Assembly: GCA_020428795.1 (NCBI GenBank)
Contig: JAGQME010000008.1
Location: forward strand, 1-32,198
DNA from: Candidatus Kaiserbacteria bacterium
GTDB lineage: Bacteria; Patescibacteriota; Minisyncoccia; Phycocordibacterales; UBA918
Direction: 5' to 3'
DNA: 32,198 bases
Shown: piece by piece, positions 2,333 through 31,563 of the stretch
How positions within the stretch are numbered: position 1 is the first letter of the stretch
Layout of the letters: every line of letters starts with the position of its first letter
The notes under the pieces: generated by a model
What the model was told of the DNA's origin: nothing
Databases searched by the model: none
What the model saw: only the letters and a program-made list of their open reading frames with translations
Translations under genes and position numbers: made by a program

Positions 2333-2406
2333 GCGGTCGTAGCTCAGCTGGTTAGAGCGCTGCCCTGTCACGGCAGAGGCCGAGGGTTCGAGTCCCTTCG
2401 ACCGCG
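2333..2406 (+). tRNA. tRNA-Asp (anticodon GTC)
   Basis: Complete cloverleaf: acceptor GCGGTCG/CGACCGC, anticodon stem CTGCC/GGCAG with loop CTGTCAC (anticodon GTC), T-loop TTCGAGT, and discriminator G as expected for Asp. CCA is not encoded (the next bases are CAG). Its last 13 bases plus 7 downstream bases recur exactly at 2569-2588. Confidence 0.95.
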
Positions 2407-2730
2407 CAGTTAGTAAAATCGACTTTCATTTTTATGAAAGTCGATTTTACGTTACGAGCGGTCTAAAAACACGTTAGTGTTTTTAGGGACTCGAAAAGAT
2501 GGAGTATATCGCACGGAGCGAAGCGAGTACGATACGACATCTGTACCGTTCCTGTAAGGAAAGAGTACCCCTTCGACCGCGCAGTTAGATACATTAAGAA
2601 AACCCAGTCATGAATGACTGGGTTTTCTTAATGTAGAATGCAAAGAGTTTTGCATTCGTATCTAACTGCGAAGCGCAGACATGTTTTTCCTCATCCCTAG
2701 GGGAAAAACAGTCGAGCTGGGGTCGAAAGT
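2394..2730 (+). repeat. tRNA-Asp tail-repeat region (direct copy, inverted copies, long hairpins)
   Basis: Direct repeat 2394-2413 and 2569-2588 (20 nt, identical, offset 175) covers the acceptor 3' strand, discriminator and first downstream bases. The first copy is followed by a perfect 17-bp hairpin (2413-2429/2434-2450). An inverted copy of the T-arm/acceptor 3' half follows as two pieces (2458-2463 and 2486-2495), split by a 10-bp hairpin (2463-2472/2477-2486). The second direct copy is followed by a perfect 22-bp hairpin (2590-2611/2614-2635), a 9-bp hairpin (2636-2644/2649-2657), and an inverted copy (2658-2670, complementary to 2580-2592). A further 9-bp hairpin (2682-2690/2702-2710) then leads into a GGTCGAA remnant at 2721-2727. 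No plausible gene is present. Confidence 0.85.
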
Positions 2731-2875
2731 ACTTGCTAGAATCAAAGCGTAGCGAATGATTATAGTTAGTAACTTGTGACCAGTTAGAAATTAACAAGAA
2801 GGATTTGGTCACGAATAAATTTTTTACAAAATCTTTCTCAACCCCACCTTACTCATCTAACAACATCATTCCGTT

Positions 2876-2970
2876 TTCAATTCCTCAGAAAAACAGAGCA
2901 GTTTGCTTCCTCCCATCGACAGACGAAAACCACTCAAAAGGAGTGGCTTTCTTTGTGTCGATGGGAGGAA
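2876..2970 (-). repeat. tRNA-Met tail: terminator hairpin and inverted copy of the tRNA 3' end
   Basis: 15 bases at 2907-2921 are the exact reverse complement of the tRNA-Met 3' end (2956-2970). Between them lies a stem of 6 bp (2930-2935/2941-2946) followed on the minus strand by TTTTC, a likely intrinsic terminator for the tRNA. The inverted copy continues further out as TTCAATTCCTC (2876-2886), separated by about 26 inserted bases (2887-2912), so the copy is broken close to the T-stem/acceptor junction. No direct copy was found on this side. Confidence 0.75.
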
Positions 2971-3029
2971 TTGAACCTCCGACCTCAACTTTATGAGTGT
3001 TGCGCTCTAACCAACTGAGCTACATCGAC
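2956..3029 (-). tRNA. tRNA-Met (anticodon CAT), elongator type
   Basis: Cloverleaf on the minus strand: acceptor GTCGATG/CATCGAC, D-arm GCTC...GAGC, anticodon arm CAACA-CTCATAA-AGTTG with anticodon CAT and an A31-A39 mismatch, T-stem GGAGG/CCTCC, discriminator A. CCA is not encoded (CAA follows). The paired 1:72 position and D-stem GCTC/GAGC fit an elongator rather than an initiator. A tRNA-Ile2 read with lysidine at the wobble position cannot be excluded by eye. Confidence 0.9.
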
Positions 3030-3055
3030 AGTGGCCAAAGATTACTATATTTAAG

Positions 3056-3742
3056 CTATTCTTTCAATCTTTTTTCTAACCAACTGCTGGCTTTTTCAAT
3101 ATCTTCAGGATAGCCTATTGGCAACCAGAATTTCTCTTCAACCACCGCTATCGGATAGCTTTTAGCATATTCACGAATCATATCCGTATGATAAAACTCA
3201 CCATTGGTCTCAATCTTTGGTTCAAACTCAAAGATATGTTTATCAAATACAAACACGCCGGTCGAAGCCATGATAGATGGTGGGTCAGTTGGTTTTTCTA
3301 CAAATTCTGCCAAGGTTCCATCGGGATTACGTACCACGATTCCAAACCTTTCCGGATTCTTAGTGCTGTAAGCCAACATAGATCGGGTATACGAGGTAGC
3401 TCTTGAAAGGTCTTCTTGACCATGAATATCATCGGCAAACAAATACAAAAACCGATCCTTTATCAAATCCTTACACAACCACAAAGCATGTCCGGTTCCT
3501 TTTTGTTCGGCTTGGTGTACATAAGTTACCTTACGACCATAGTAATTATAGCCACAATGTTCTCTAATTTGCTCTTCCAAATAACCAGTCACAATAATCA
3601 ATTCATCAATAAATACCGGCAAGGCCTCAACTATATGATCAAGTAACGCTTTTCCACCCACCTTAATAAGAGGCTTGGGACAATCATCGGTCAGAGGTTT
3701 TAGTCTGGTTCCCTTTCCGGCTGCCAATATCACACATTGCAT
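3056..3742 (-). CDS. Sugar-phosphate nucleotidyltransferase (NTP_transferase family)
   Basis: 228 residues from the ATG at 3742. The N-terminus MQCVILAAGKGTRLKPLT is the nucleotide-binding signature of glucose-1-phosphate thymidylyl/uridylyl and mannose-1-phosphate guanylyl transferases, followed by CPKPLIKVGGKALLDH. LFADDIHG (about 101-108) is the metal-binding region, and the FGIVVRNPDG...FVEKP region (about 132-151) matches the sugar-binding part. It would make an NDP-sugar for cell-surface glycans; the sugar is not predictable. The single short domain lacks the left-handed beta-helix of GlmU. A longer start (TTG at 3778) is possible, but the ATG opens the conserved beta-strand directly. 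It sits 32 nt downstream of the HTH/LAGLIDADG-like gene. Confidence 0.82.
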   Translation of the reverse strand: MQCVILAAGKGTRLKPLTDDCPKPLIKVGGKALLDHIVEALPVFIDELIIVTGYLEEQIREHCGYNYYGRKVTYVHQAEQKGTGHALWLCKDLIKDRFLYLFADDIHGQEDLSRATSYTRSMLAYSTKNPERFGIVVRNPDGTLAEFVEKPTDPPSIMASTGVFVFDKHIFEFEPKIETNGEFYHTDMIREYAKSYPIAVVEEKFWLPIGYPEDIEKASSWLEKRLKE

Positions 3743-3774
3743 AATGGGAATATGATACCTTATTGAATTAAATT

Positions 3775-4449
3775 TCAAAACAAAATTGAATCAATAGCAC
3801 CCAACACCTGCCTTCTTAACCTCGTACCTTTTCTTACTTTTATTCTCAAGGTTCCATAGTGTGACTTTGAGTTTGAATAAAATTTTTTATTCCGAACTTT
3901 TATCAAACTGGGTTTAGTAAATTGTGACCTAGGAATTCCAGTTAGTACAGACCAATACTGCTCAATTTCACTGATTCTATTTTTGTGTAACTCGTTAACA
4001 CTCACTCTTAGGATCAATTTATCGGATGTAATATTAAAAATTTTATAGAGCCATTTACAGTAAAACAATATCATTTGGGGATCACTATTTGTAAAACCAA
4101 ATTCTTGATCACCCTTTTTATAACCTTCACCCCAGTACAATCCCAAACCAATACAATACAAATCTCGACTATTAATTACCCCGATCTTTTTTCTTCCCTC
4201 CTGTTTATCGTGCAGAATATCTAACTGTCTTTTGGCACGTAAAGTTTCTGCATAACGTAATAAAGACTCAGTGCTTTTTGATTTACTTTTTTCGGAAATT
4301 TTCTTAATCGCTAACTTAGACAACTTTATATCCCTACACCAATTACTGACCGTACTTTTGCTAACCCCTACCGTCTTTGCAATATCACCGATACTCATGC
4401 CCTTATTTCTCAATTTGATTGATTTTTCTCGTTCTTTAGCTTTTGTCAT
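3775..4449 (-). CDS. HTH protein with LAGLIDADG-like C-terminal region
   Basis: 224 residues from the ATG at 4449. Residues about 5-45 form a helix-turn-helix (IKLRNKGMSIGDIAKTVGVSKS...SNWCRDI), similar to HTH_23-type domains of resolvases and transposases. The C-terminal half has CIGLGLYWGEGYKKG, then FTNSDPQMILFYCKWLYKIF, a pattern reminiscent of a single LAGLIDADG homing-endonuclease fold with Glu in place of the usual acidic pair. The protein is very basic (Lys/Arg rich). Its promoter TATAAT lies 13 nt upstream of the ATG, and an alternative TTG at 4488 is upstream of that box. It starts 79 nt from the intron-bearing tRNA-fMet, on the opposite strand. A DNA-binding regulator is an alternative reading. 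Confidence 0.6.
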   Translation of the reverse strand: MTKAKEREKSIKLRNKGMSIGDIAKTVGVSKSTVSNWCRDIKLSKLAIKKISEKSKSKSTESLLRYAETLRAKRQLDILHDKQEGRKKIGVINSRDLYCIGLGLYWGEGYKKGDQEFGFTNSDPQMILFYCKWLYKIFNITSDKLILRVSVNELHKNRISEIEQYWSVLTGIPRSQFTKPSLIKVRNKKFYSNSKSHYGTLRIKVRKGTRLRRQVLGAIDSILF

Positions 4450-4527
4450 AAGTCTTAAGGTAATTATACTATATACATAGGTAGACAATTATATTTATTA
4501 GTGTATACTTTTCAAGTTCCTAGATAT

Positions 4528-4845
4528 AGCGGGGTAGAGGAGAGGTACCTCGGGAGGCTCAATAGGGCTCATAAGAAAGAAATTTTTTATGGAACACTTG
4601 CCAAATTCGGTGAAACCTTTGCTTTAAGCATGGCAATACCGAGCCAAGCCCAGCCCTACTTTATAAATTACAATTTATAAAGTAGGGCTGGGAAGGTGTA
4701 GAGACTAGATGGTAGGCATCTGACTTTAGGAAACTAAAAAGATGAAGGTATAGTCCAGACCCCAAATTCATGTTTTACATGAAGCAGTGAAAACTGTAGT
4801 GGTATGCATAACCTCCAGACCCCGGTTCGATTCCGGGCCCCGCAA
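4528..4845 (+). tRNA. Initiator tRNA-fMet (CAT) interrupted by a group I intron
   Basis: The exons 4528-4559 and 4807-4845 join to a full cloverleaf. The acceptor has G2-C71 to G7-C66 paired and A1/A72 unpaired, the D-stem has A11:T24, the anticodon stem is GGAGG/CCTCC with loop CTCATAA (anticodon CAT), and the T-stem is CCCGG/CCGGG. The unpaired 1:72 position and A11:U24 are hallmarks of bacterial initiator tRNAs. Position 1 is A rather than the usual C, and the anticodon stem has A29-U41 instead of three uninterrupted G-C pairs. CCA is not encoded (CAA follows). The 3' half looks at first like a tmRNA tail, but the 5' exon settles it as a tRNA. Confidence 0.9.
4560..4806 (+). ncRNA. Group I self-splicing intron in tRNA-fMet (between U33 and C34)
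   Basis: 247 nt, no ORF. The conserved core is clear: AAATTCGGTGAAACC (P region), GGCAATACCGAGCCAAGCC (Q), GTAGAGACTAGATGG (R) and GGTATAGTCC (S). GACTA in R and TAGTC in S form P7. The layout closely follows the cyanobacterial tRNA-Leu intron core (IC3 type). P8 has a TTTAG-GAAA-CTAAA hairpin. The P9 region has TTCATG-TTTTA-CATGAA and CAGT-GAAA-ACTG. The 5' exon ends in U (4559) and the intron ends in G (4806), as group I chemistry requires. GGGCTC near the intron start is a candidate guide for a short P1, but that pairing is weak by eye. A 21-bp perfect hairpin (4649-4669/4672-4692) fills the P6 position. Confidence 0.9.
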
Positions 4846-5111
4846 CAATAACAAAATCACATCCCTTCTGGGATGTGATTTTGTTATATGTTTGCGGAGG
4901 CCAGAGAGCAAACTGCTTTGCTCTCGTCGGAATCGAACGGACGGAGTCATGTTTTTATTTATTCCTAAAATAAAAACGGACGAGACGAGCCAACGAGTTC
5001 TTATGAGCGTAAGCGAATTTGAAACTCGATGTCGATTCCGGGCCCCGCAACAAGTAAATTTCAACACAAGATAAACGGCCAGCGATCGCTGGCCGTTTAT
5101 CTTGTGTTGAA
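4827..5111 (+). repeat. tRNA-fMet tail-repeat region (direct copy, interrupted inverted copy, long hairpins)
   Basis: The last 19 tRNA bases plus CAA (4827-4848) recur exactly at 5032-5053 (22 nt, offset 205). The first copy is followed at once by a perfect 17-bp hairpin (4849-4865/4870-4886). An inverted copy of the tRNA 3' half follows in two parts (4892-4902 and 4928-4938), interrupted by a 9-bp hairpin (4904-4912/4917-4925). Next is a 10-bp hairpin (4951-4960/4968-4977) and a spacer with GAGCGTAAGCGAA (5005-5017). The second direct copy is followed by a 52-base perfect palindrome (5060-5111) abutting the stop codon of the next gene, which may act as a bidirectional terminator. Confidence 0.88.
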
Positions 5112-31038: not shown

Positions 31039-31234
31039 GCGGAGAGTAAGGGATTCGGTCACAAGTCCAAATCGAAGATTTGGCTCGCGACCCCGCCTCG
31101 ACTCTCTCTTTCTCCGCTTCGCTTCGAAATTCACATGAGTCTCCGGCTTTCGAATCCCTTACTCTCTCGCTCGCACAAACAAAAACAATGCTACTCGCAT
31201 TGTTTTTGGTGCTCGCGGAGAGTAAGGGATTCGA
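31039..31234 (-). repeat. tRNA-Ser tail-repeat region (direct and inverted copies of the 3' end)
   Basis: The 3' end of tRNA-Ser (31215-31233) recurs exactly at 31039-31057 (19 nt, same orientation, offset 176). An inverted copy of 16 bases lies at 31151-31166. Immediately after the tRNA a 12-bp hairpin (31180-31191/31197-31208), followed on the minus strand by TTTTTGTTTG, looks like an intrinsic terminator. The spacer has GAAGCGAAGCGG (minus strand, 31114-31125) and a 7-bp hairpin around 31070-31083. No gene is seen. Confidence 0.85.
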
Positions 31235-31302
31235 ACCCTTGAAGGCTTTTACACCTTACCTCGTTAGCAGTGAGGCGCTTTCGACCACTCAGCCAACTCT
31301 CC
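31216..31302 (-). tRNA. tRNA-Ser (anticodon GCT)
   Basis: 87-nt class II tRNA on the minus strand. Acceptor GGAGAGT/ACTCTCC, anticodon loop CTGCTAA with anticodon GCT and an A31/C39 mismatch in the stem, a long variable arm (AAGGTGTAAAAGCCTT), T-stem AAGGG/CCCTT with loop TTCGAAT, discriminator G. CCA is not encoded (CGA follows). Confidence 0.93.
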
Positions 31303-31563
31303 ATATTCACTCCGAGCTGGCTGAGTGCTCTCAAGGTTCGTCCACCTCGCAAGCTCGGATTCAAAGTGCCCCCAGCACTTTTCATCCACTCAGCCAACTC
31401 TCCAGTTTTGCTCTATTGTTATAACGTTTATAGTTCAATAAGCGTTAGGTTTCGTTTCCTCCTTTGGTCTGTTCGTACCTCACAACGACCAATCTGCTCA
31501 CTTTGTTCGCAGACCAGATGAAAAGCAAATAAATTTGCTTTTCATCCACTCAGCCAACTCTCC
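31286..31563 (-). repeat. tRNA-Ser 5'-end copies upstream of the gene
   Basis: The first 18 bases of tRNA-Ser (31285-31302) recur at 31386-31403 and 31546-31563. The two extra copies share 26 identical bases (31378-31403 and 31538-31563, offset 160). Each is followed in tRNA orientation by a hairpin: 13 bp for the outer copy, AAAGTGC/GCACTTT for the inner one. An inverted copy with one mismatch lies at 31314-31327. The bases between hold no convincing gene. Confidence 0.8.

Follow-up and report, generated by a model that had tools for sequence, protein, structure and literature searches.

The 3′ ends of tRNA genes are the commonest docking sites for bacterial mobile DNA and, to our knowledge, each element that targets them is bound by its att sequence to one or a few tRNAs. 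The 178-bp repeats of E. coli tyrT (rtT) lie behind a tRNA gene and contain a copy of its 3′ end, at a single locus, and we know of no inverted copy or core there; rtT gave no match in an Rfam scan of the window, i.e., the whole stretch of 32,198 nt analyzed here from a Candidatus Kaiserbacteria contig (JAGQME010000008.1). Islands at tRNA genes are reported to show a regenerated gene plus a displaced fragment (Islander, PMC4383910), and integration of phage Ms6 is reported at the tRNA T-loop (PMC1762012). Such islands and prophages share with the units reported here a direct copy from the T-loop to the 3′ end, an intact tRNA and a displaced fragment on the far side, whereas the units are only 100–200 bp long, contain no gene, and have a hairpin core, an inverted copy and one core for many tRNAs. 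Descriptions of such units were not found in the open-access literature searched.

Each unit starts with a tRNA gene, behind which stands a perfect terminator hairpin. An inverted copy of the 3′ end of that tRNA comes next, in many cases interrupted by a small hairpin, and then the core, which is structured and conserved; the direct copy closes the unit. The first one in the window has as host tRNA-Asp(GUC) (2333–2407, plus strand; ARAGORN, RF00005). It continues on the plus strand with the perfect, intrinsic-terminator-like hairpin H1 (2414–2449, arms TAAAATCGACTTTCAT and ATGAAAGTCGATTTTA), seen in the sequence and the fold as part of an inverted repeat at 2397–2466. The inverted copy of the tRNA end (GAGCGGTC ... 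GGGACTCGAA; 2456–2495, minus strand; sequence, copy scan and fold) is interrupted at the acceptor/T-stem boundary by a hairpin at 2464–2485. The core, designated type A (2488–2568, plus strand; covariance model R1, 28.5 bits, E 3.8e-5), comprises a P1/P2 hairpin, TGTACCG and a hairpin with a TGTAA loop. A repeat search located the direct copy (CCCTTCGACCGCGCAGTTAG; 2569–2588, plus strand), identical over 20 nt to positions 2394–2413, and a further perfect hairpin with 22-nt arms (2590–2635, plus strand). Beyond it, sequence and fold reveal a degenerate second unit (about 2650–2790, plus strand), not recognized in the earlier note, with TAACTGCG, a hairpin, GGGGTCGAA and a core-like loop AAAGCGTAGCGAA, whose terminal direct copy is gone.

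The elongator tRNA-Met(CAU) (2955–3029, minus strand; ARAGORN) is followed by a decayed fourth unit (2800–2954, minus strand) with a 15-nt inverted copy of the 3′ end (2907–2921, plus strand; copy scan), a type B core (2800–2885, minus strand; model R2, 53.6 bits) and a decayed direct copy. The next gene, tRNA-fMet (4528–4846, plus strand; exons by sequence reading), is split by a group I intron (4550–4778; RF00028, 76 bits, 8e-18 in the Rfam scan); both this intron and the tRNA-Met unit had escaped the earlier note. Repeat searches found, on the plus strand, the perfect hairpin H1 of the fMet unit (4848–4887), the direct copy (TCGATTCCGGGCCCCGCAACAA; 5032–5053), identical over 22 nt to 4827–4848, and a perfect hairpin with 26-nt arms (5060–5111). 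The inverted copy, read from the sequence, is imperfect and split by a hairpin with GCAAACTGCTTTGC (4890–4937, minus strand). We assigned by eye a type-B-like core (4938–5031, plus strand), with the loop GAGCGTAAGCGAA at 5005–5017, which had no R2 match at E 0.01.

The unit of tRNA-Ser(GCU) (31215–31302, minus strand; ARAGORN) has an 18-nt inverted copy (31149–31166, plus strand), a type B core (31050–31158, minus strand; model R2, 38.7 bits) and a 19-nt direct copy (31039–31057, minus strand) identical to 31215–31233, both copies being found by repeat search. The same search revealed, upstream of this gene, two copies of tRNA positions 1–18 (31386–31403 and 31546–31563, minus strand), which had gone unnoticed before, as well as an imperfect inverted copy (82%) of the tRNA 5′ end between the 5′-end copy and the gene (31314–31335, plus strand). 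No curated Rfam family other than tRNA and the group I intron attains its gathering score in the window. The exact direct copies of 19–22 nt claimed by the earlier note after tRNA-Asp, tRNA-fMet and tRNA-Ser were thus recovered, with spacings of 175, 205 and 176 nt. Its AGCG..AGCG motif forms the loop of one of the core hairpins.

For a single exact 19-mer, the probability of a chance occurrence within 200 nt is around 1e-9. We scanned 300 nt of both flanks of 198 distinct tRNA genes, allowing at most one mismatch: the last 18 nt of the tRNA recurred downstream in 58 of them, a count that is not a prevalence since many loci were picked through core matches, and upstream in none (0/198). Conversely, the first 18 nt recurred upstream in nine genes and downstream in none (0/198); this 5′ class of copies follows GTGG of the D-loop. 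Ends of other tRNAs were present in only 13 of 3866 tests and random flank 18-mers in 0/198, which bears out the claim that each copy stems from its own neighbor. An unbiased prevalence comes from the source genome (0.86 Mb, Paceibacteria), examined through searches and sequence stretches, where about 10 of 30 tRNA genes have a copy of their own 3′ end: Gly-tcc, Thr-tgt (whose copy spans an N gap), Asp, Trp, Gly-gcc, Glu, Pro, Ser-gct, Ser-gga and fMet. The inverted copies described earlier are uninterrupted, over 15–20 nt, in Met, Arg, Ser, Trp and Gln units, and hairpin-split in those of Asp and fMet. These results confirm that the copying of tRNA ends is real and more extensive than had been claimed.

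The direct copy spans from tRNA position 54–57 through the end of the gene, starting at R57 or, where the core terminates in TTC, at T54. Among 87 tRNA-linked units it is exact over 18 nt in 39 and at least 90% identical in 47, and is decayed in about half; in 17 of the 39 exact copies there is no rightward extension past the tRNA 3′ end. An encoded CCA is found in 3/76 occupied tRNAs versus 25/147 unoccupied ones (p = 0.005) and after 12/85 displaced copies (p = 0.03), a modest test with loci that are not fully independent. Judged by this encoded CCA, the direct copy appears ancestral-like. We rejected copying from mature tRNA with CCA, which follows just those 12 copies, as in unoccupied genes.

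The type A model matched 49 of 59 related genomes and 0 of 223 outside the order, and the type B model 29 of 36 related genomes. In the 66 type A matches, 95% of cells were paired, with 371 double-change cells, and covariation was 0.67, versus 0.16 when shuffled (0/500) and at most 0.11 when slid; type B behaved likewise (0.48 vs. 0.17). GTAC and TGTAA are conserved unpaired elements of the core. Stems P1–P3, leaving out one column, contain about 24 G-T and 20 A-C cells, whereas the acceptor and T stems of tRNAs from the same genomes contain 139 and 13, respectively; therefore, the core stems do not show RNA-type wobble. A core-pattern scan of viral contigs gave 11 matches, all of which, on inspection, were chance occurrences within other sequence. 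The units occur in one order of ultra-small Parcubacteria/Paceibacteria, where they lie just behind many different tRNA genes.

Several observations point to mobility. The cores at a tRNA-Leu and a tRNA-Tyr gene of the same genome (L193/L194, G029) are identical from GAAG to GTTC, yet their flanks, GAGTC..GACTC and GATTT..AAATC, each fit their own tRNA; near-identical cores beside different tRNAs also occur for Glu/Trp in the source genome and for Gln in genome G002. Cores showed no clustering according to tRNA species (0.538 vs. 0.547). The idea of lineages specialized to one isoacceptor was discarded, as same-tRNA core pairs were no more similar than others. Comparison of loci for empty sites showed tRNA-Asp and tRNA-Trp genes with a terminator and no unit in several relatives, and synteny between a locus with a unit (L110) and one without it and with the tRNA inverted (L115); exact empty junctions were not seen because these comparisons cross species, at about 75% identity. 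Relatives of the core are also dispersed away from tRNAs, with GTGAG preceding the hairpin. Tandem arrays occur as well, and one insertion lies at the start of a protein gene, where 36 bp are duplicated (L185). Patchy occupancy, shared core, arrays, dispersed copies and this insertion favor the earlier reading of miniature integrative elements.

Other small repeats offer partial parallels. REP/REPIN/BIME sequences with RAYT (PMC2817692, PMC3116915) and GTAG-tagged repeats (PMC3733652) are likewise small, palindromic, non-coding, dispersed and arrayed. Next to the hairpin, where REP sequences have a conserved GTRG-type tetranucleotide, dispersed forms of the core show GTGAG and the 5′ class follows GTGG; the 3′ class has neither. 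Unlike REP sequences, the units are strongly tied to tRNA 3′ ends and have target-derived arms, and the core is absent from the flanks of the order's RAYT genes. MITEs are also non-coding, with inverted arms and target duplication (here, 36 bp in L185 and the 18-nt tRNA copies), but the unit arms copy the host tRNA, there is no fixed terminal inverted repeat and no parent transposon was found. Integron attC and other folded single-stranded att sites would be comparable in their imperfect inverted arms, extrahelical insert and stem conserved in structure, not in sequence; in contrast, the units lack cassette genes and no attC consensus was noted. As in integrative elements, the target tRNA is regenerated and the displaced 3′ fragment remains as a direct repeat.

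We regard the units as probable mobile DNA: miniature elements of a single Paceibacteria order, non-autonomous and non-coding. The mobile part would be a core of 60–110 nt that folds into conserved hairpins and enters tRNA genes in the T-loop common to all of them, between positions 56 and 57 (GTTC^RA). Once the core is integrated, its host would carry a regenerated 3′ end (57–74), the terminator, an inverted copy of its own end and the core, with the displaced original 3′ end on the far side; the right-hand copy would thus be the ancestral one. Movement may occur at the DNA level via a folded (hairpin or single-stranded) form, with a recombinase, host Xer or another enzyme, acting in trans on the T-loop-like junction. 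Matching of the arms to the new host might most simply come from copying of the target during insertion. Of this scheme, we observed the unit anatomy, the covarying stems, the boundaries, the spread across the order, the empty sites and the same core with re-matched arms at different tRNAs. More tentatively, and we would sooner bet against it than for it, a core without fixed ends might gain direct and inverted copies of the tRNA 3′ end at each insertion, any tRNA being invadable by the same core via the universal T-loop and left whole. No enzyme tracked the units, whether tyrosine recombinase, Y1 transposase or reverse transcriptase. Xer is present at about one per genome in carriers and non-carriers alike, with no excess of integrases in carriers, and was not detected in G006, which has units. 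As regards retroelements, reverse transcriptase (RVT_1) is absent from the source genome (G000) and most carriers; Y1_Tnp is absent from G000 and several carriers, and the flanks of 20 Y1_Tnp loci had no core match above 19.4 bits. Within 450 nt we found no larger cargo-bearing element, and no integrase lies in or is linked to the units, which at about 150–200 bp contain no gene. Of the enzymes looked for, host Xer is the only one left after the reverse transcriptase and RAYT searches.

Function as RNA seems unlikely to us. In this reading the unit would be a small RNA or a 3′ trailer with a defined structure that regulates how the tRNA matures, the inverted copy acting as antisense and the second direct copy serving as a decoy. 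The same strand and order behind many tRNAs, the strong covariation with unpaired GTAC and TGTAA, and the predicted pairing of the inverted copy with either direct copy would suit it, but a perfect terminator-like hairpin separates the tRNA from the inverted copy, core stems have no excess of G-U over A-C, the same tRNA lacks a unit in relatives, about half of the units have decayed direct copies and related cores exist away from tRNAs. The processing switch with antisense and decoy copies put forward by the earlier note finds no support in these points, and direct copies reach the tRNA 3′ end even where that part is unpaired. Also hard to favor is an origin without dedicated mobility, in which replication switches templates at hairpins and at GTTC microhomology, copying tRNA ends and spreading segments of the core, and palindrome correction keeps stems perfect. 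We consider it improbable because the order as a whole keeps two particular core folds and their conserved loops, and boundaries are precise at 54–57 and the gene end, despite the perfect arms without G-U bias, the forward-inverted-forward order, the orthologous loci (L075/L076) with swapped terminator and core modules and a nearly identical inverted arm, and the long tandem duplications in L068, L043 and L062.

There is little to recommend, finally, the view that the copies are plain att duplications, displaced tRNA fragments left by islands or phages that had a conventional tyrosine integrase and have since been reduced. The copy from the T-loop to the gene end and the CCA polarity do fit the regenerated gene and displaced fragment reported for tRNA islands (PMC4383910) and the T-loop integration reported for phage Ms6 (PMC1762012). 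Against it stand one conserved core across many tRNA species, units without an integrase gene, inverted copies, re-matched arms and carriers with no excess of integrases. As the earlier note held for the inverted copies, att duplication alone does not account for them; the classical model yields neither these nor re-matched arms, and only the direct copies fit.

In these units, one structured core serves many tRNA species, with host-matched arms, in very small genomes that usually have one tyrosine recombinase. Should the arms be copies of the target, the units would represent an unknown integration route; if they are selected, they would represent an unknown layer of tRNA-gene architecture. 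The conserved, covarying cores, captured in two covariance models, make this question directly testable.

The earlier note described exact, same-orientation copies of tRNA 3′ ends behind tRNA genes of the window, and these were confirmed at the positions it reported. The order that it proposed for the units (perfect hairpin, inverted 3′-end copy, spacer with a core motif and direct 3′-end copy) also held, with two corrections: in the tRNA-Asp and tRNA-fMet units a separate hairpin splits the inverted copy where acceptor and T stem meet, and the AGCG..AGCG motif, previously assigned to a spacer, is the loop of a core hairpin. It had overlooked a further unit behind tRNA-Met, a degenerate second unit behind tRNA-Asp, and two copies of the 5′ end of tRNA-Ser located upstream of this gene. 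A group I intron of 229 nt (RF00028) splits the tRNA-fMet gene (4528–4846), which is, for this reason, missing from the ARAGORN list; ARAGORN also flagged other tRNAs in relatives as possibly intron-bearing, among them tRNA-Asn in loci L041 and L141. Between tRNA-Met and the intron-bearing tRNA-fMet, the minus strand (3775–4488) codes for a 237-aa protein that combines an N-terminal HTH with a GLYWGEG motif, the latter reminiscent of LAGLIDADG/WhiA-type endonucleases.

The genome of origin (855,644 bp, 99% complete), of which the window is one contig, contains copies of own 3′ ends of at least 16 nt at approximately 10 of 30 tRNA genes. Loci coding for relatives of a neighbouring protein were found in records of Parcubacteria/Paceibacterota, Taylor- and Zambryskibacteria; in L032 (MHVX01000023.1) and L035 (JAGLOS010000016.1), units lie behind tRNA-fMet and tRNA-Asp and carry their own tRNA sequences. 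Prevalence figures, except those from the own-genome and tRNA-Asp/Trp surveys, are biased because many loci came from R1, the covariance model for type A cores, which favours units with helix P0. R1, built from four units of the own genome, matched in 49 of 59 relatives, with up to 50 matches per genome; R2, the model for type B cores built from three tRNA-Asp units, matched in 29 of 36. Of 19 R2 loci read, 15 lie behind a same-strand tRNA, of many species. Using strict filters on 240 genomes drawn across the phylum, R1 matched in three, all from the same order and including the own genome, and yielded no match outside this order. Although the assemblies of the own genome and of the relatives are drafts, many independent assemblies have units in the interior of contigs, which makes an assembly artefact an unlikely source.

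Alignment of 66 type A matches defined three helices, P0 (the tRNA-derived arms), P1/P2 and P3, with 95% of cells paired and 371 double changes, values that shuffled and slid controls fell far short of; GTAC(T/A/C)G, between the helices, and a TGTAA loop are also conserved. P0 necessarily follows the tRNA, and the independent evidence of covariation is therefore that from P1–P3. There, leaving one column out, G-T and A-C cells were about equally rare (24 vs. 20), whereas the acceptor and T stems of tRNAs from the same loci contained 139 and 13, respectively. This balance suggests that selection or correction of the hairpins acts on DNA rather than on RNA.

The direct copy is exact over 18 nt (tRNA positions 57–74) in 39 of the 87 tRNA-linked type A units and at least 90% identical in 47, many others being truncated or decayed. 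It starts at R57, or at T54 where TTC ends the core, and mostly finishes at the exact 3′ end of the tRNA gene. The acceptor part is copied even without a pairing partner, and its inverted copy was present in only 47 of 90 spacers, versus 10 in the reversed control. CCA is encoded by 3 of 76 occupied tRNA genes versus 25 of 147 unoccupied ones, and follows the displaced copy in 12 of 85 cases; these counts fit a left end that was regenerated and a right end that is ancestral, as described for tRNA islands (PMC4383910). A mirror class exists at tRNA 5′ ends, with its stop at GTGG of the D-loop. Breaks elsewhere inside tRNA genes were seen in L014 and L046, where copies of positions 1–52 and 1–46, upstream of tRNA-Glu and tRNA-Arg, respectively, are followed by unit-like hairpins.

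In several relatives, the same tRNA is followed by nothing but a terminator. At a syntenic tRNA-Trp locus of two species, genome G018 (L110) has a unit and G019 (L115) has none, with the tRNA in opposite orientation, possibly due to inversion through the inverted arms; at their orthologous tRNA-Asp loci the inverted arm is kept and terminator and core differ. The clearest case in favour of mobility is in G029, where the cores of the tRNA-Leu and tRNA-Tyr units do not differ between GAAG and GTTC, these included, and the arms (GAGTC/GACTC and GATTT/AAATC, respectively) each match their own host. The Glu and second Trp units of the own genome are a further case of this kind, and core comparison showed no greater likeness among units of the same tRNA species. 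Genomes G009 and G029 also contain a dispersed family, away from tRNAs, with a generic GTGAG hairpin; one such unit (L185, 701–766) sits inside the beginning of a glycosidase-like protein gene, and a stretch of about 36 bp from that beginning is present in duplicate, on either side of the unit. Another unit of this type (L182, 701–776) adjoins the 3′ end of an apparent 5S rRNA gene of the opposite strand, and has on its far side a 10-bp repeat of that end.

No partner enzyme was found among Xer recombinases, Y1 transposases and reverse transcriptases: Xer occurs about once per genome, with or without units, and does not track them; Y1 transposases are patchy among genomes and had no cores in their flanks; and reverse transcriptases are mostly absent from the genomes checked. 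Nor was the core found in the viral contigs scanned. Among relatives, the single Xer-type recombinase falls into two sequence classes within one genus (E about 1e-45 and 1e-33). The simplest account consistent with the results is a non-autonomous mobile DNA core that would join the tRNA gene at GTTC^RA of the T-loop. Host-matching of both arms goes beyond what known integrases account for; we favour the idea that the arms would be matched by copying from the target.
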